DNA of 38,142 nucleotides. Source: a virus. Both the position numbers and the translations under genes were made by a program. The stretch is from positions 1-38,142 of the IMG/VR virus record IMGVR_UViG_3300050011_000059, one strand, 5' to 3'. Positions 10,401 through 38,142 of this stretch are shown one piece after another. The notes under the pieces were generated by a model. The model worked only from the letters and a program-made list of their open reading frames with translations, ran no database searches and was not told the DNA's origin. Position 1 is the first letter of the stretch. Every line of letters starts with the position of its first letter.

Positions 10401-11927
10401 TTACCCTCCCGGGATCTGCGCGTTAGCGGCCGATGTGGGCGCCGCGGAGTTGTACTGCGGCGCCGAATAGTTCGTGGCTGGCTTTGCGCGTGCGTAGCGA
10501 GTGGGATTCTTGATACCCAGCGCCGCGAGAAACGCAAGATCTCCCGACGTTAGACCACTCCCGCCCGAACGCGCGTTGAACGCCGCGTTTAGAACCTGCG
10601 TGCCAAGCCGGTTCGGGAAATACGTACGATAGGTCGCCGTTCCGCTGGCAGAAGTGCCGGTCTGTATGCGACCGCCGTTCTGGATGATGTGGTACGCCTG
10701 CGTGGGCGGCAGACCATGATTGATGAGGTTCTCGATCTCGCCTGTCACATAATCAATGTGGGAGAAAACAGCGTTCGCCTGCGCGCCCGTCGCAACCTTG
10801 CCCGTCTTCGCGGCACGCGCCATCTGCGACACCAGGATGCGGGTCGAGTTGTTCGCTGCATTGTTCGCCGCGCTGGTGTTGGTGGAACGCAGGTTATTGA
10901 GGTTCGACTGGGCGATGGCGGCTGCCCTATTGGTCTGAGTCGCTTGATCGTTCTGCGCGACGGTCTGCGCCGAGTAGACCTTCGTGTTCGCGTTCTTCGA
11001 GTTCGTGTTCGCGTTCTGAGCGCCAGTAGCCGCAGTCGTCGCTTTGATCCCTAAGCCGCCCTCAGCGATCTGGTTCGCGATCTCCTGCTGACGCAGCTTG
11101 CCCAAGTCTGTTGCCGTCAACGCGCCAGTCTGAGCCTGCTCAGCTGCGATCTTCGATACCAACGGCTCGTTCTTCACCGTTCCGGACTGCGCGATGGCCT
11201 TGAGCGCTTCCTGGCCCTGGAGTCCGTACGTCCCCAACTGGGATGCTGCCATCTGCTGGTTGTTCGCGCCCTGTACCGCACCGAACCCCTGATACGTCCC
11301 AGCCTGCTGAGCAGCCAACCCCTGCTGCCTCGCGATCGAAGCCGCCAAGTCCGACGTTGCGGCGTTCGCGAGGCCACCATCGCCCTGCGGCGCGTACTTC
11401 ATCAAGCTCGAGAGCGCGCCCTGACCAATCCCCTGAAGCTGACTCTGAGTGCTCGAGCCGATCCCAGACAGCGTCGAGTTCAAACCCGACGCGATATTGC
11501 CCGAGTCAGTCACGCCCTGCTGCACCGCCGGCATCAGCTGGTTGTAGAACCCGCCGGTCTGGTTGATCGTGCCCTTCGTCTGGGCGTTGTTCGCAGCGAT
11601 CTGCTGCTGAAGCTCAGTGATCGGCCCTTTGGTCTGCGCGTTCGCGAGTCCCTGCGCAGCCGACAACAACGACGCTCCAGACAGAGTCGCGTTGGGGTTC
11701 AGCAACGGACTCAGCGACGGAGCAGCAGTCTTCGCGGGCTTGGGCGCTGGGACGGTACGAGTGTGCGCCTTGACCGTAATCGTCGTCGGCTTGGCTGCCT
11801 TCGGCTTCCCACCAGCAGGAGCCGACTTGGGAGCCGCAGGCCGCGGACCGTACGCCGGCGCAGCCGGTGCCTTCGGCGCGAACGCAGGGGAAGGCACCCC
11901 CGGGAATCCCACACCAGGAGCGGCCAT
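10401..11927 (-). CDS. Internal virion protein, Gln/Ala/Asn-rich
   Basis: 508 aa. The first ~85 residues are Pro/Ala/Lys-rich and disordered-looking. The rest is helical and rich in Q, A, N and S (LQQQIAANNAQTKGTINQ, TNSKNANTKVYSAQTVAQ), like ejection proteins such as T7 gp14/gp15 or P22 gp7/gp20. A more folded part near 370-470 carries FSHIDYVTGEIENLINHGLPP and NPTRYA. Its start overlaps the previous stop by 1 nt (TAATG), so it is co-translated with the 264-aa protein and the 1160-aa protein. Functional assignment rests on size, order and composition. Confidence 0.55.
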   Translation of the reverse strand: MAAPGVGFPGVPSPAFAPKAPAAPAYGPRPAAPKSAPAGGKPKAAKPTTITVKAHTRTVPAPKPAKTAAPSLSPLLNPNATLSGASLLSAAQGLANAQTKGPITELQQQIAANNAQTKGTINQTGGFYNQLMPAVQQGVTDSGNIASGLNSTLSGIGSSTQSQLQGIGQGALSSLMKYAPQGDGGLANAATSDLAASIARQQGLAAQQAGTYQGFGAVQGANNQQMAASQLGTYGLQGQEALKAIAQSGTVKNEPLVSKIAAEQAQTGALTATDLGKLRQQEIANQIAEGGLGIKATTAATGAQNANTNSKNANTKVYSAQTVAQNDQATQTNRAAAIAQSNLNNLRSTNTSAANNAANNSTRILVSQMARAAKTGKVATGAQANAVFSHIDYVTGEIENLINHGLPPTQAYHIIQNGGRIQTGTSASGTATYRTYFPNRLGTQVLNAAFNARSGGSGLTSGDLAFLAALGIKNPTRYARAKPATNYSAPQYNSAAPTSAANAQIPGG

Positions 11928-12721
11928 TATTTCGCCTTCGCCGAGGTCTGCGTAAACATCGCCGTTCCCTTCTTCTGAACCGGAACCGCCTTCGTCAAAG
12001 CCTTCGCCACCGCAGCCCTCGCAGCCGCCACAACCGGCGTTATCGGCGCCGGAGCCAAGGCCTGTCCAGTCGCCGGGTTCGCAGCAGCGAGTTTCGTAGC
12101 CCTGGCTACCGCGTCGTCATACTGCCCCAGCTGGTAGGTCCCCAAGCCTTGCTGCAACCCGGCGATCGAACTGTTGATCGCCGCCTGCTTCTGAGAGTTC
12201 GCCGTCGTATCGGCAGCCTGCTTGGTCAGATACGTGTTGTTCAGGTTTCCGAGGTTCTGGTCATACACGCTCGAGTACAGAGCGCCAGTGTTGTTCGCGC
12301 CCTGCTCGAGCTTGAGCTGGTCGCGGGGCTGCTGGTACGCGAGAGCCGCCAACGCGCTCTGTAGCGCCGTCGTGTCATTCTGGCCCGTTGCGGTCAGCGT
12401 GTTGATCTGACCGCCGACCTTGAGCTGGTTGGCTGCGAGATTGCCGAAGTACGTTGAGTCCAATGGGGACGCGGGCGCGGTACCACCACCCGTCGGAGCC
12501 GGCGCAGCTTGCGCCGGTGCGCCACCCGGCGATACCGGAAGCTGCGCAGCCACCCCGGGACTAGCCCGAGGGACCGACGGCTTCAACGTCGGGGCCTGCC
12601 CGAACGTGATCCCGGCGTTCCCCTTCGGAATCCCAGCCGCCTTCGGGACCGTCGGCGCTTTGATCGACGTGAAAGTCCCGGTGCCCGGCTTAGCGGACGG
12701 AGCGGCGAACGAGATAGGCAT
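11927..12721 (-). CDS. Internal virion protein, N-terminal Pro/Ala-rich
   Basis: 264 aa. Residues 1-85 are Pro/Gly/Ala-rich. From ~88 a helical part begins (DSTYFGNLAANQLKVGGQINTLTATGQNDTTAL, quoted in parts) with QQPRDQLKLEQGANNTGALYSSVYDQN. The 'L..L..Q...TGALYSS' layout recurs in podovirus internal proteins. The tail is Ala/Lys-rich. It precedes the two larger ejection-type proteins in the same operon. Probably part of the ejected inner core. Confidence 0.5.
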   Translation of the reverse strand: MPISFAAPSAKPGTGTFTSIKAPTVPKAAGIPKGNAGITFGQAPTLKPSVPRASPGVAAQLPVSPGGAPAQAAPAPTGGGTAPASPLDSTYFGNLAANQLKVGGQINTLTATGQNDTTALQSALAALAYQQPRDQLKLEQGANNTGALYSSVYDQNLGNLNNTYLTKQAADTTANSQKQAAINSSIAGLQQGLGTYQLGQYDDAVARATKLAAANPATGQALAPAPITPVVAAARAAVAKALTKAVPVQKKGTAMFTQTSAKAK

Positions 12722-30085: not shown

Positions 30086-30757
30086 CTACTTGACCGCTGG
30101 CAACGATGCCGTGCGACGCTTAGAACGTCTCGTCTTGCCGAGTGCTGCACCGATTGCTGATCTTCGCCACGTCAATCCACCGCGAATCGTTGGGACGCCG
30201 GACGTGTTCAACGCCGTGCAGATCTGGTCGTAGCTGAAGCCGAGCTCGTGCATGTTGCGGATCTGAGCGACGATCACCGGATTATCCGAAACGCTGCCTT
30301 GGTTGATTGGCTGTCCTTGTCTGCGCTTCTCAGCCAACGCGTTCCTGGTGTTCTCAGCGATCACACGGCGCTGCCATTGAGCTAGCGCGGCCATCATATG
30401 AGCGATCAGCTCACCAGCTGGCGTGCTCGTATCCAAATCGAAATCGAGGACCACAAGGATCTTGTCGGCGTCTTTGAACCACTCGACAAGCTGGACGAAA
30501 TCGCCGATTGATCTCGTAAGGCGATCCAGGCGCGTCACGACCAGGCCATCAGCTTCACCGCCTGCTAGGCGTCGGAGGGTGTGTTGCAGCCCATCACGAC
30601 TGAGATCCTTCCCAGATCCTTGCTCTCTGGCTATCTCGAGGACGTGCCATTCCTTACCAGCAGCGTGATAACGAATCTGGTAATCCTGAGCATCCAGCGA
30701 TTTACCAGATTCCTCCTGATCAGCGGTGGACACGCGGCAGTACCCTAGGACTTTCAT
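30086..30757 (-). CDS. Small serine recombinase (resolvase/invertase type)
   Basis: 223 aa. The N-terminal catalytic domain has KVLGYCRVSTADQ with Arg8 and nucleophile Ser10, then REQGSGKDLSRDGLQ, DGLVVTRLDRLTRS (active-site Arg residues) and LDTSTPAGELIAHMMAALAQ leading into helix E (RRVIAENTRNALAEKRRQG). The C-terminal ~70 residues (ELGFSYDQICTALNTSGVPT..GLTWRRSAIGAAL) are a DNA-binding part. It is far shorter than large serine integrases (~500 aa), so inversion, resolution or transposase-like action is more likely than phage integration. ATG at 30757 by ATGA overlap. Confidence 0.85.
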   Translation of the reverse strand: MKVLGYCRVSTADQEESGKSLDAQDYQIRYHAAGKEWHVLEIAREQGSGKDLSRDGLQHTLRRLAGGEADGLVVTRLDRLTRSIGDFVQLVEWFKDADKILVVLDFDLDTSTPAGELIAHMMAALAQWQRRVIAENTRNALAEKRRQGQPINQGSVSDNPVIVAQIRNMHELGFSYDQICTALNTSGVPTIRGGLTWRRSAIGAALGKTRRSKRRTASLPAVK

Positions 30758-30930
30758 GCTGCAGTTTCCCATGGCTGCTTGACTCGCGCCGGCAACTCGC
30801 TCACAGCCAGCTCACGCTCGCAACACGAGCCGCAGATACAGCCGTTCGCGTAGCCATGGCAGAGCTCTGGTCCATCAAGATCGCCGAGGCCGAGTAGTAG
30901 GCCGAGAACACGATCGTTGACGCTGAGCAT
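30754..30930 (-). CDS. 58-aa Cys-cluster protein
   Basis: ATG at 30930 with GGAGG 5 nt upstream; the stop overlaps the recombinase start (ATGA). CHGYANGCICGSCCEREL carries five Cys and one His, likely one zinc site. Located directly before the serine recombinase and translationally coupled to it; it could be a directionality or control factor, but nothing proves this. Confidence 0.55.
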   Translation of the reverse strand: MLSVNDRVLGLLLGLGDLDGPELCHGYANGCICGSCCERELAVSELPARVKQPWETAA

Positions 30931-31566: not shown

Positions 31567-31793
31567 GTCTCCAGCAGGGCGTTGAAACGGCGATACCACA
31601 TGCCGTCATCCAGGTTGCCGTCCTCAGCAGCAATCTCGCGCAGCCCCTCAAGCACAACGCGCACAGCCGCGTCTGCCGCCGCCTCGACGTACGGCTCCGG
31701 GTCGGTGTCGGCCTGCCCTACATGGTCCTGAGAGGCATACCAGCGATCAACGGCCGCTCGGCGCCATTCGCTGCTTTGCTCAGGTTCGCGCAT
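31557..31793 (-). CDS. Small acidic protein after integrase
   Basis: 78 aa, starting MREPEQSSEWRRAAVDRWYA, with YVEAAADAAVRVVLEGLREI and an acidic C-terminal part. TGATG overlap with the integrase stop. All-helical in appearance. In this position an excisionase or regulator would be expected, but no HTH is visible. Unknown. Confidence 0.55.
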   Translation of the reverse strand: MREPEQSSEWRRAAVDRWYASQDHVGQADTDPEPYVEAAADAAVRVVLEGLREIAAEDGNLDDGMWYRRFNALLETCS

Positions 31794-32833
31794 CAGTCCT
31801 GATCCTCGAGCAAGACCTGAGTCATCGTCGCAGTGAGCTGGTTCAGATCGTGATCAACGTAGATATCGCCGGTCGTCTGAATCGACGCATGACCAAGCAG
31901 CGCCTGAACAGCCTTCAGATTCCCCGTAGCATCAAGAACGCGCTGGCCGGCGGTATGCCGTGCTTTGTGAATCCGCTCGCCGCTCTCAACACCCTCCGAG
32001 ACGATCCCTGCGGCCGCTAGGCGCCGGTACCACCACGTATGTATGCCATGACCGCCGATCGGCTTTGTTGGGTCCAGGAGCCGTTTCTTCTGGTTTCCGT
32101 TGTTTCGGGGCATCAGATAGTGCGATGCCTGCGCTTCAACGTCGAGGATGTGGCGCTCAAGATCCATCCAGAACTCGGGGTGGGGGATCGGCACATTCCG
32201 GACCTTGCTGCCCTTCGTGAAGATCGTCAGCGTCCGGCGCTGATGATCGAAATGCTTGAACTGGACAACCATCACCGCGCCACGACGCAACCCATAGTCC
32301 AAGAGGAGTCTGAGCGCGATCCGGTCGCGGAGTTCCTCGGCTTCCGCGACGATCGCTCGACGCTGATCACCCGAAAATGTGGTGCGATACACGCCGCGTT
32401 TCTTCGCAACCTCGATCGGCAGCGTCGGATCGCCGTGCATGTTCCCGCGGATGATCTGGAACTTGAAGAAATCCCGAATGATCGACAGATGCTTGTTGTA
32501 CGTCGACGGGGCAGCGTCGCCCCACATCGAATCCAGATACTCCTCAATCCGGTTCGTACCGGCCGGGGGTTCGAACTCCGTGAGACTCTGAGCGTCCGGG
32601 AAGAACCTGGCGAACTTGTCAAGGCTGCTTTCCCAGTCACGCCGGCTGAGATCCGTCAGCCGCTTGCGTTTCACGCGCAAATACGCTTCGGCCTCTTGGC
32701 CCATCGGGAACAGCTGATAGCCCTTATTGCGGATGATCTCTCGGTTCGCTGCCGCGACCAAATCAGGTCGGGCGCGTAGAATCCGCGCAATCTCGTCGCT
32801 CGTCAAGCCCTCCGGTTCCCGTAGCGCGATCAC
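31793..32833 (-). CDS. int: Tyrosine integrase
   Basis: 346 aa. Residues ~55-140 form the core-binding SAM-like domain (WESSLDKFARFF, STYNKHLSIIRDFFKFQ). The catalytic domain shows GLRRGAV (Arg183 or 184), TKGSK (Lys210 region), H289-x-x-R292 in KARHTAG, LGHAS with His315, and GDIYVDHD with nucleophile Tyr325. Length is normal. Role: site-specific integration and excision, so the phage is probably temperate. GTG start at 32833 overlaps the methyltransferase stop (GTGA). No attB-like tRNA fragment was recognised nearby. Confidence 0.85.
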   Translation of the reverse strand: MIALREPEGLTSDEIARILRARPDLVAAANREIIRNKGYQLFPMGQEAEAYLRVKRKRLTDLSRRDWESSLDKFARFFPDAQSLTEFEPPAGTNRIEEYLDSMWGDAAPSTYNKHLSIIRDFFKFQIIRGNMHGDPTLPIEVAKKRGVYRTTFSGDQRRAIVAEAEELRDRIALRLLLDYGLRRGAVMVVQFKHFDHQRRTLTIFTKGSKVRNVPIPHPEFWMDLERHILDVEAQASHYLMPRNNGNQKKRLLDPTKPIGGHGIHTWWYRRLAAAGIVSEGVESGERIHKARHTAGQRVLDATGNLKAVQALLGHASIQTTGDIYVDHDLNQLTATMTQVLLEDQD

Positions 32834-33669
32834 GCGGCAACACCGCCCAGCGCTTGATCGCCAATCGGGTAGTCCCAGCCGAAGCGGGCGCGACGGCTGA
32901 ACAGTTCGGCGTACGGCCCGGGGCTGACTTGCTCCACTAGGTCATAGAAAGCGTCGGGCTTGGCGCTGTGAGCGCCCCGCGGCCACTTGAACCACGTTGA
33001 GATCGGCTTGTCCTTCGGCACCATCGACTCGCCGCGAGTGGCGAAGATGCAACTCTCGGTGTTGTTCCTGAGGTAGTAACCCACCCCGGGCTGAGGCTTG
33101 CACCACGTCACGAGCGTGATCGGCCGGAAGCCCCACGCGATGACCACCTCGTGCGCCTCGCGCATCATGCCGTTGAGCGCCCAGCACCAGAGGTGCGCAG
33201 ACTCGTCGGCCTGCTCCGCAACCGGCAGCGCAGCGATGTCGCTCAGCGTCATCGTGGGGTAGTGCTTGGTCGCGTCGGCCTTCGAGCCGCAGAGCACAAT
33301 GCAGGGCTTGAGCTCTGCCGTCCGAACGTTCTCCATCACCCACGGCAGCCCTGACTGCTCGAGCAGCTCACGCGTCGGAGCGATCAGCGCAGGGTGGTCG
33401 CCCTGGTCGCCCCGCCAGGCCGTGACGTTGGCGTAGTGCTGACAGGGCGGCGAGGCGTGAATCGCGGCGAAGTCGTCGAGCGTCCAGTGGGCGATACCAC
33501 CGCACTCAAGCGTCTCGATGGCGTCCGCCTGCCAGAACTCATCGCCGCAGTAGTTCGGCTGCGGCTCAATATCAACGCCGACCACATAGAAACCGGCGCG
33601 CTGATAGCCCTTGGCGCAGCCGCCGGCGCCGCAGAACAGGTCAAGCAGCCTGGGCCGTAGCGCGCTCAC
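32830..33669 (-). CDS. Chimeric methyltransferase: C5-MTase N-half fused to MT-A70 C-half
   Basis: 279 aa from the GTG at 33669 (GGAGG upstream; GTGA overlap with the preceding 49-aa gene). Residues 8-129 match the start of C5-cytosine methyltransferases: DLFCGAGG (10-17, SAM loop), GVDIEPQP, ASPPCQ with Cys76 as the catalytic Cys, MENV (112-115) and VLCGS (125-129). From ~130 the sequence switches to MT-A70 N6-adenine methyltransferases: HYPTMTLSDIAALPV, HLWCWALN, WGFRPITLVTWCKP, VGYYLRNNTE, ISTWFKWPRGAHSAKPD, FYDLVEQVSPGPYAELFSRR, GWDYPIGD. The C5 recognition domain and motifs IX-X are missing, as is the MT-A70 DPPW motif. The frame is continuous. Activity is uncertain: a hybrid enzyme, a DNA-binding relic, or an assembly join. 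Confidence 0.75.
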   Translation of the reverse strand: MSALRPRLLDLFCGAGGCAKGYQRAGFYVVGVDIEPQPNYCGDEFWQADAIETLECGGIAHWTLDDFAAIHASPPCQHYANVTAWRGDQGDHPALIAPTRELLEQSGLPWVMENVRTAELKPCIVLCGSKADATKHYPTMTLSDIAALPVAEQADESAHLWCWALNGMMREAHEVVIAWGFRPITLVTWCKPQPGVGYYLRNNTESCIFATRGESMVPKDKPISTWFKWPRGAHSAKPDAFYDLVEQVSPGPYAELFSRRARFGWDYPIGDQALGGVAA

Positions 33670-33815
33670 CGCTCTCGCGCCTCCCGTACCGGCGGCCAGA
33701 TCAGATCGCAGAGCTTCCCGCCGGCCCAGAGCTGCGTCATCATCAGCACGTACGCCCAGCTCCAGGGGTTGAGGGCGACGGCGAGGGCCTGGCATGGGGT
33801 GGGCTGCTCAGCCAT
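33666..33815 (-). CDS. 49-aa Trp-rich, possibly membrane microprotein
   Basis: ATG at 33815 overlaps the upstream stop by 8 nt; TGA overlaps the methyltransferase GTG. The middle (ALAVALNPWSWAYVLMMTQL) is hydrophobic enough for one membrane helix; the ends are polar, finishing PPVREARER. No family recognised. Junctions on both sides support it as a gene. Confidence 0.55.
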   Translation of the reverse strand: MAEQPTPCQALAVALNPWSWAYVLMMTQLWAGGKLCDLIWPPVREARER

Positions 33816-36024: not shown

Positions 36025-36286
36025 CCCAACGCATCGCCTCACGGAGACTTTCAACCAGCACAAGGATGTTCACCGCTCGCTTCTTGCGATAGTCCAGAGC
36101 ATCGAACTCGTCGAGGACGGCGACCACGCCAAGGACCTTCTGGCGCTCTGCATCGCAGTCACACGGCTGGACAGTGCCGAACTCCTGCGTGACCGACTCC
36201 GTGAGAGTTCGCGCAGCCACGCGCAGGTCCACGAGTTCCTCGGTTAGATCGTTGAACGTCAGATGATATTCGTCAGGCGTGTTCAT
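36017..36286 (-). CDS. Small helical early protein
   Basis: 89 aa beginning MNTPDEYHLTFNDLTEELVD, ATGA-coupled to the nuclease gene. Long helices (RVAARTLTESVTQEF, DYRKKRAVNILVLVESLREA) flank a CDCD segment. No DNA-binding motif seen. Unknown. Confidence 0.55.
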   Translation of the reverse strand: MNTPDEYHLTFNDLTEELVDLRVAARTLTESVTQEFGTVQPCDCDAERQKVLGVVAVLDEFDALDYRKKRAVNILVLVESLREAMRWDD

Positions 36287-36597
36287 GCCGCCACCTTCCT
36301 TACCGGCCATTCGGCCTCAGAGATCCACTGCAACTTTCCACGAGACGGCCACCACGCCAACAACGCGTCCGCGCCAGCCAGACGCGCCGCAAACGACAGC
36401 CGCTCGCGATCCGCCGGACCGAAATGCTCGTACGGACCCTGCGCAGTCGACTTCACCTCAATCAACCTCGAGCGGCTACCGGCACGCAACGCGACCACAT
36501 CAGCCACGCCCAGCGACGCCGGCGCGCGGAACGCCAGCCAATCCTCGCTCAACAACTGGTTACGCACCGCGCGCTCCCTGTCGTGCCCGCGGCTCAT
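36283..36597 (-). CDS. Hjc-like PD-(D/E)XK nuclease
   Basis: 104 aa. RGHDRERAVRNQLLSEDW carries the N-terminal Glu (8) of the Hjc/VRR-type nuclease, followed by APASLGVADVVAL (Asp33) and RLIEVKST (Glu47-x-Lys49): the classic E...D...ExK core. The later helix (ERLSFAARLAGADALLAWW) fits the family. Role: Holliday-junction or branched-DNA cleavage before packaging, or nuclease work at replication forks. ATGA-coupled to the primase gene. Length is normal for Hjc (~120 aa), slightly short. Confidence 0.7.
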   Translation of the reverse strand: MSRGHDRERAVRNQLLSEDWLAFRAPASLGVADVVALRAGSRSRLIEVKSTAQGPYEHFGPADRERLSFAARLAGADALLAWWPSRGKLQWISEAEWPVRKVAA

Positions 36598-37532
36598 GCC
36601 GCCAACCTTTCGAGAAGATCACGCATCTGATCCAAGCCGCCCTCGTGCGCAGCCTCGCGGACCCAATCCCCAATGTCGTGGCCGTCCACGCGACCCGGCT
36701 CGATGTCAACCATGCGCGCCTTCGGGATCTCCCGAGCCACTTTCACAGCCAACTCCCGGCCCTGCGGATCACAATCAGCGAGCACGATCACACGCCGGCC
36801 AGCCAGCCGGAACGCAAAGTCCGAACGCCACGAATTCGCGCCCGGCAAAGCAACCGCCTGATGACCGCACGACCACACCGCAACAGCGTCCGGCTCGCCC
36901 TCGACGAGGAACACCGGACGTGACCGGACCGTAACCTCCGGAGCCGGGAACAACAACCGCTTCGACCCCGGCAACGCCAACGACTTCGGACTACCACCAG
37001 GCAAATACCGCACCAGGCCGACGATCTTCAGCTTGGCATCCCGGATAGGGAACGTCACACGCTCGCCATCCCACCCCAAGCCACACCGGATGATCGCCGG
37101 GACCGTCCAACCCCTGACCTCCCACAACCGGTCAACGATCGCCGGTGACGCCAACAACCGCTCGCGCCACTTCTTGAGCTCGCGGTTACCCGGCACCTTC
37201 GCCTTCTCCGGCTTCGCGACCTCGAGAAACAAGCCGAACCGTTGCGCCAACGCCCGAGCCCTCGGCTCATCGATGTTGAGCGCCAAGGCAGCCTTGTACG
37301 CGTTCCCGGACGTCCCGCACCCATGGCAATGCCACAGGCCGGTGATCATGTTCAACACGCACGACTTCGACCGGTCCTCATGCGTGTGCGCCTCCGGGGC
37401 CGCGAAGCAGCGGATGCTGACATCGTCAGCGGCCGTCGGTGGGATCTCGATGCCGATCGCGTCGAAGAACCCACGGACGTCCGCCGTCGACTCCGACCGC
37501 AGCCAATCCATCTCAGCAACGCTCGCGCTCAT
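36594..37532 (-). CDS. DNA primase (CHC2 zinc finger plus TOPRIM)
   Basis: 312 aa. The CHC2 zinc finger is at ~42-72 (Cys42, His near 49-51, Cys69 and Cys72 in WHCHGCGTSG). The TOPRIM domain covers ~205-290: FLVEGEPDAVAV (Glu211), VIVLADCDPQGR (Asp253/Asp255), DGHDIGDW. There is no helicase domain, so it corresponds to the primase half of T7 gp4-like proteins and probably borrows a helicase. ATG at 37532 overlaps the previous TGA (TGATG); a GTG one codon earlier is possible. Leads the nuclease and small-protein operon. Confidence 0.8.
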   Translation of the reverse strand: MSASVAEMDWLRSESTADVRGFFDAIGIEIPPTAADDVSIRCFAAPEAHTHEDRSKSCVLNMITGLWHCHGCGTSGNAYKAALALNIDEPRARALAQRFGLFLEVAKPEKAKVPGNRELKKWRERLLASPAIVDRLWEVRGWTVPAIIRCGLGWDGERVTFPIRDAKLKIVGLVRYLPGGSPKSLALPGSKRLLFPAPEVTVRSRPVFLVEGEPDAVAVWSCGHQAVALPGANSWRSDFAFRLAGRRVIVLADCDPQGRELAVKVAREIPKARMVDIEPGRVDGHDIGDWVREAAHEGGLDQMRDLLERLAA

Positions 37533-38142
37533 CACGCAGCAACCGCCTGCTTGATCTTCACGCCATCCTCATCGCACTCGTACAGGACGGTGCAGGTCTT
37601 CGCTTTACACTTATCGGCGATAGCCGGGCTGGTAATCACAACGATGTCCGCAAGCTCCACCCGACACGCCACATACCGTGTGCCGCTGGCGTAGCGGTGT
37701 GCCAGGAACGGCCGCGGGCTGAAATGCAGACCGTAGCCGCAGCAGCCCTCGGTGGTCCAGTCGGCCGCAACAGGCTTCTCGCCTGGCTTGTAGCTGGTGC
37801 CGTGCCCTGACACGAAGTCATCGTTGAGGAGCTTGTAGAGCGTGACGCTCCCTCGCGCCGCCTTGATGCCGTAGAAGTCGCAGAACTCCTCGGCAGTCCC
37901 GACCGGCGGGATCTCGATCAGGACACCGCCGATGACCTTGGGGCCTTTCCCGTGCTTCTGGACGGCCACGAAGGGTGAGGCGCTGACCGTGGCCGAGTCG
38001 TAGGCGTGAATCGCGGCCGAGCCGTAGGCGCTGACCGTGGCCGAGTCGTAGGCGCTGACCGTGGCCGAGCCGTAGGCGTGAATCGCGGCGAAGTCGTAGG
38101 CGTGAATCGCGGCCGAGTCGTAGGCGTGAATCGCGGCGAAGT
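37532..38142 (-). CDS. Octapeptide-repeat protein with DUF7666-like C-terminus (5' end outside window)
   Basis: The minus-strand frame stays open to the right edge, so the N-terminus is missing; an internal GTG at 37969 is not the likely start. The visible N-terminal part is ~6.7 tandem units of eight residues, AY(D/G)(S/F)A(T/A)(V/I)(S/H). The folded C-terminal ~140 residues include VTLYKLLNDDFVSGHGTSY, AADWTTEGCCGYGLHFSPRP, ALADIVVITSP-like strands and CTVLYECDEDG. From memory these match the phage family labelled DUF7666, which often carries 'AYDSATV' repeats that would build a beta-solenoid. Function unknown. Confidence 0.65.
   Translation of the reverse strand, partial: FAAIHAYDSAAIHAYDFAAIHAYGSATVSAYDSATVSAYGSAAIHAYDSATVSASPFVAVQKHGKGPKVIGGVLIEIPPVGTAEEFCDFYGIKAARGSVTLYKLLNDDFVSGHGTSYKPGEKPVAADWTTEGCCGYGLHFSPRPFLAHRYASGTRYVACRVELADIVVITSPAIADKCKAKTCTVLYECDEDGVKIKQAVAA
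37982..38142 (-). repeat. 24-bp tandem repeat encoding octapeptides
   Basis: Six full 24-bp units plus 17 bp of a seventh, running to the window edge. Two main variants (ACGGTCAGC and GCGATTCAC cores) alternate with GAC/GGC and TCG/TTC changes, all in frame. Unit number may vary by slippage or recombination. Confidence 0.85.

Follow-up and report, generated by a model that had tools for sequence, protein, structure and literature searches.

A phage gene that joins the first half of a C5-cytosine methyltransferase to an MT-A70 domain without DPPW, probably a one-off relic of two neighbouring genes

The window that we analysed, the whole 38,142-bp contig of a virus record, contains a gene in which the N-terminal half of a C5-cytosine methyltransferase runs in frame into an MT-A70 adenine methyltransferase domain that lacks its DPPW strand (Table 1). 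This chimera is a single case and a real oddity, probably a one-off relic of two neighbouring genes and not a new kind of enzyme. The explanation towards which we lean, with moderate confidence, is an in-frame deletion that fused neighbouring orphan C5 and MT-A70 genes into a catalytically inactive product, with the frame kept by translational coupling. In such an event, DNA would have been lost between a C5 gene upstream and an MT-A70 gene downstream on the same strand, and the fused product would retain motifs I-VI of the C5 enzyme and the greater part of the MT-A70 domain.

Two families in Pfam and two in PHROGs divide the protein between them. PF00145 (DNA_methylase) matches residues 7-116 with 24.9 bits against a cut-off of 22, ending at position 112 of the 324 in the profile, and PF05063 (MT-A70) matches residues 134-266 with 52.2 bits (cut-off 23.9), covering positions 20-167 of 172, that is, the body of the family. 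Similarly, phrog_363 matches residues 5-121 (E 2e-29) and phrog_359 residues 131-267 (E 7e-42); from the half that each of them matches, we infer that the former is of C5 type and the latter of MT-A70 type. With these E values, the chimeric nature of the protein is, at the level of sequence, real and far beyond chance. The earlier note had placed the gene correctly, leaving its strand unstated (it is read on the minus strand, from 33669 to 32830), and had proposed just such a chimera with one in-frame join near 33282, an assignment that the four family matches and the break described below bear out. It had also named a single known family over the whole protein as the outcome that would speak against this reading; that possibility was rejected, as no family in Pfam, PHROGs, PADLOC or NCBIfam spans both halves.

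Table 1. Positions of the chimeric gene, its parts and its immediate neighbours in the window
Feature	Positions	Strand	Details and evidence
Chimeric methyltransferase gene	32830..33669	minus	279 aa, GTG start, TGA stop; translation, two Pfam and two PHROG families
C5-cytosine methyltransferase N-terminal half, residues 1-129	33283..33669	minus	motif I DLFCGAGG, motif IV PPCQ (Cys76), motif VI MENV, VLCGS; PF00145, phrog_363 and C5 alignment
MT-A70 domain without N-terminal DPPW strand, residues 130-279	32833..33282	minus	PF05063 and phrog_359
Join, S129 (TCG) / K130 (AAG)	33280..33285	minus	L133 and L132 (C5) versus L050 and L052 (MT-A70) around the break
Small 49-aa gene, upstream	33666..33815	minus	its TGA overlaps the GTG of the chimera as GTGA; read from sequence
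Tyrosine integrase, downstream	31793..32833	minus	PF00589, E 3e-19; its GTG overlaps the TGA of the chimera as GTGA

The first half contains the features by which C5 enzymes are recognized, namely the FxGxG of motif I (as FCGAGG), the PCQ of motif IV with its nucleophilic cysteine and the ENV of motif VI, and it is 66% identical in its best segment to the C5 gene of one relative fetched from viral contigs (L133). More generally, phage orphan C5 methyltransferases (PF00145, PHROG 363), such as gene 45 of Gordonia phage Yakult, L133 and L132, resemble residues 5-129 in motifs I, IV and VI and in VLCGS, with around 50-66% identity to the nearest of them. The second half, which carries HYPTM, WGFRPITLVTW and ELFSRR, is 63% identical to its closest MT-A70 relative, L050, and 62% identical to gene 50 of Gordonia phage Fosterous; phage MT-A70 proteins (PF05063, PHROG 359; Fosterous gene 50, L050 and L052) resemble residues 130-279 at 61-63% identity and have in common with them KADA, HYPTM, HLWxW, WGF, TWxKP, NNTE, WPR, HSAKP and ELFxRR. 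The change from one family to the other is abrupt, with everything before 33283/33282 corresponding to C5 and everything after to MT-A70. Near the break, the chimera reads MENVRTAELKPCIVLCGS and then KADATKHYPTM. Its close C5 relatives L133 and L132 have MENVRTRELRACFVLCGSTFGLPVRRHRYFET and IENVRTTALRSPVVLCGSQFGLPIRRHRYFES there, passing from VLCGS to xFGLPxRRHRxFE, while L050 has TIVADPPWQLAQAGVTKADARKFYATM, aligned at the break as DPPWQLAQAGVT and then KADARKFYATM, and the Gordonia phages Fosterous and Mcklovin (62%) have IVADPPWPSMHQRSTYHRGKPERHYPTM.

Both parents lost essential parts at this join, as the earlier note had recognized for the C5 target-recognition domain and the MT-A70 DPPW motif. 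On the C5 side, these parts are motif VIII, the target-recognition domain and motifs IX-X: of the xFGLPxRRHRxFE stretch, the target-recognition region and the C-terminal IPPAYT..IG that follow in phage orphan C5 enzymes, the chimera has none, and its missing RxR..E and IPPAYT motifs were found by pattern in 105 and 100, respectively, of the 121 C5 frames that we fetched. On the MT-A70 side, the short N-terminus, the first strand and the catalytic DPPW, present as [DN]PP[WFY] in 91 of 99 fetched MT-A70 frames, are replaced by the C5 half. The earlier note had further stated that one SAM loop and one Cys nucleophile are kept; this holds for the nucleophile, Cys76, whereas two elements that we take to contact SAM remain, the FCGAGG of C5 motif I and the ELFSRR tail of the MT-A70 part.

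The second half of C5 enzymes provides target recognition and completes the cofactor site. In MT-A70 proteins, the D209A change in the DPPW aspartate of MTA1 almost abolishes activity, and METTL14 and MTA9, in which DPPW is eroded, are inactive (PMC9852454, PMC5023411). Thus, since DPPW is needed in MT-A70 enzymes and the second half is needed in C5 enzymes, both activities would have been lost, and the chimera is most likely inactive for 5mC and 6mA. Phage orphan methyltransferases can shield phage DNA from restriction (PMC4190342), and this phage has probably lost both of these protective methylation activities, unless the chimera has a non-catalytic role. An active hybrid, in which the C5 half would methylate cytosine through Cys76 and Glu113 and the MT-A70 half would serve as a DNA-recognition module, seems scarcely credible to us: the C5 half does have intact motifs I, IV and VI and the MT-A70 half is modelled with confidence, but the protein lacks the target-recognition domain as well as motifs VIII, IX and X, the same layout occurs in no relative of any collection searched, and a single fold is not predicted.

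The structural predictions are from AlphaFold2, which, with an alignment of 86 rows, gave a model of the chimera with a mean pLDDT of 79.6 and a pTM of 0.54. Both halves are mostly confident, and residues 121-142 fall below a pLDDT of 50, a low score at the junction that is partly expected because the alignment had its MT-A70 rows trimmed at this point. As a control, the intact MT-A70 protein of L050 (40 rows) reached a pTM of 0.85, with the DPPW strand in place. The simplest reading of the model would be two incomplete half-domains on one chain with an unstructured junction. In Foldseek searches, the best PDB matches for the MT-A70 part were METTL3 and MTA1, with a query TM of about 0.43, and the viral structure library gave methyltransferase matches with high rmsd, the best being A0A516M216 at 12 Å.

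These matches bear on the possibility that the protein is a non-catalytic binder, either with its DPPW-less MT-A70 part acting as a partner like METTL14 or MTA9, or with the protein as a whole masking sites from restriction enzymes. Eukaryotes are known to have degenerate MT-A70 partners that lack DPPW (PMC9852454, PMC5023411), METTL3 and MTA1 are the best fold matches in the PDB, and conserved positions are intact outside the lost parts. Nevertheless, METTL14 and MTA9 keep an eroded motif in place (the EPPL loop and the NALW motif, respectively) where the chimera has lost the segment, the DPPW strand being absent from its model; they also have no C5 part, which would be an unexplained extra here, and they pair with an active MT-A70 subunit, whereas in the 38-kb contig we saw no such partner and no second match to either half. 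A partner could lie in the host or in a missing part of the genome, but conservation of the fusion was not seen, and we regard this alternative as distinctly unlikely.

The earlier note had offered two functions, a new hybrid modification enzyme and a protein that binds DNA to evade restriction. The former finds no backing, given that there is no second example, that both active sites are incomplete and that the model has no single fold; for the latter, we found no positive evidence. In our judgement it is very unlikely that the hybrid works, as a stable protein that would bind DNA, or use a borrowed recognition surface to methylate cytosine, and would shield the DNA of the phage from restriction; such a protein would be a naturally occurring chimera in which C5 and MT-A70 enzymes are joined half to half. 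If real, this is a phage gene in which two methyltransferase classes that order their motifs differently, C5 and the circularly permuted MT-A70, have been fused, and with its product one could test directly whether halves of domains from unlike classes of methyltransferase are still able to fold or to bind DNA. As a relic, it would illustrate the turnover of methyltransferases in phages, and a best-hit label of “DNA methyltransferase” would mislead on both activities.

The fusion appears to be rare. Searching 50,697 phage and 72,556 plasmid records by tblastn with the whole protein revealed no place covering at least 80% of it, nor was the fusion found in 396 Actinomycetota genomes, and one scan of genome contigs gave C5 relatives only. 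We scanned viral contigs with the whole chimera, with its MT-A70 half, and with MT-A70 and C5 alignments that both had the chimera as their first row; the MT-A70 alignment found 218 relatives and the C5 alignment 548, and the best 80 loci of each scan were taken. Profiles of both halves run over these loci identified the 121 C5 and 99 MT-A70 frames, among which the chimera alone has both halves in one frame. In the viral contigs, a pattern for the MENV-to-HYPTM spacing had no match, and the ten matches to CGxKADAxK included no methyltransferase fusion. Literature searches likewise returned no published description of a C5/MT-A70 fusion. These viral contigs, phages, plasmids and sampled Actinomycetota thus yielded no second fusion, in collections that may omit the records nearest the window, so that close siblings could escape.

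Several loci had the appearance of a second fusion. L063, with a match that spans residues 4-275, and L130, which was found with the C5 alignment and matches MT-A70, were rejected as each has two separate genes, and a second copy in L009 that aligned across the join is an ordinary full C5 enzyme. L006 could not serve as a witness, since its MT-A70 gene (positions 1-435) is cut by the contig edge and the upstream part is not visible. Its nearly identical, unusual C-terminus, GWDYPIGDQALGGVAA, is common to the chimera, while the rest is around 50% identical, and this common tail may reflect exchange or shared descent. Elsewhere among the viral MT-A70 genes, the frame of those in L096 and L112 (2940-3000 in both) changes just after DPPW, within unbroken runs of 11 and 10 G, respectively, so that the remainder of the domain is read in a frame other than that of DPPW; in their relatives L100, L122 and L124, which are in frame, the G runs are shorter or interrupted. 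These runs could be a phase-variable poly-G switch of phage adenine methyltransferases, or homopolymer errors.

That the fusion occurs once, in one metagenomic contig, and that the join sits in the middle of both genes, are also what one would expect from an assembly or chimeric-read artefact joining two genomes or two genes of one genome. We consider this fairly unlikely. Elsewhere in the window, nothing longer than 11 bp matches the join region, and k-mers that span the join are shared with the fetched loci over 15 bp at most, which gives no indication of a misjoin driven by a repeat. Furthermore, the frame is kept across the join (a 1 in 3 chance), the start and the stop both form GTGA overlaps with neighbouring genes, and the two sides are similar in GC3 (0.84 and 0.87).

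The earlier note had proposed a deletion between two adjacent ancestral methyltransferase genes, which is plausible given that pairs of this kind do occur. Seven of the fetched loci have C5 and MT-A70 genes on the same strand and no more than about 2 kb apart; in one of these, L092, the C5 match is weak. Five strong pairs (L063, L067, L073, L108 and L130) are in the reverse order, while L077 has C5 and then MT-A70, the order needed for a deletion fusion, with around 305 bp between the stop-to-stop frames; a deletion of about 750 bp in this locus would yield the layout of the chimera. We found no relative with both intact parents at the position of the chimera, and the deletion itself is a reconstruction from such pairs and not an observed event.

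The halves that remain are in good condition. Defining a conserved column as one that is the same in at least 85% of relatives, the chimera deviates at 0 of 42 conserved C5 columns and at 1 of 31 conserved MT-A70 columns, no worse than typical intact enzymes, and by this comparison the retained halves have no signs of decay. The fusion would therefore be either recent or constrained, and one sequence cannot tell which. Two intact-looking halves could also reflect selection for function, which counts against a deletion relic.

The surroundings of the gene offer a possible reason for its open frame. It is part of a tight operon, with GTGA overlaps on both flanks. The frame could also open at an ATG at 33795 to give 321 aa, but its overlap with the stop codon of the 49-aa gene makes the GTG at 33669 the more probable start. 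The front of the chimera thus pairs with upstream genes and its end with the integrase, the arrangement that a former C5 front gene and MT-A70 back gene at this place would be expected to leave. Under the deletion fusion that we prefer, the frame would still be open owing to a recent deletion and to coupling that runs from the 49-aa gene through to the integrase, and the fusion may have persisted because its in-frame product keeps the integrase translationally coupled.

The rest of the contig encodes, among others, a terminase, a portal, a major head protein and primase-like and resolvase-like proteins, and the nearest phage relatives of both halves come from Gordonia, Mycobacterium and Rhodococcus phages; the virus, a temperate phage, thus probably has an actinobacterial host. 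The seven nearest relatives of its terminase are 49-53% identical, and as neither half of the chimera was found in their available contigs, the gene appears to be accessory cargo. A serine recombinase (30086-30772, minus) lies around 1 kb from the tyrosine integrase, and the early region contains a protein with a match to the archaeal Holliday junction resolvase Hjc (PF01870, E 1e-7) and a DUF7666 protein at 36283-36597 and 37532-37969 (both minus). Lastly, ARAGORN called a tRNA-Ile (GAT) at 12004-12075 (minus), within a 264-aa open frame at 11927-12721; a spurious call or an unusual overlap is the probable explanation.
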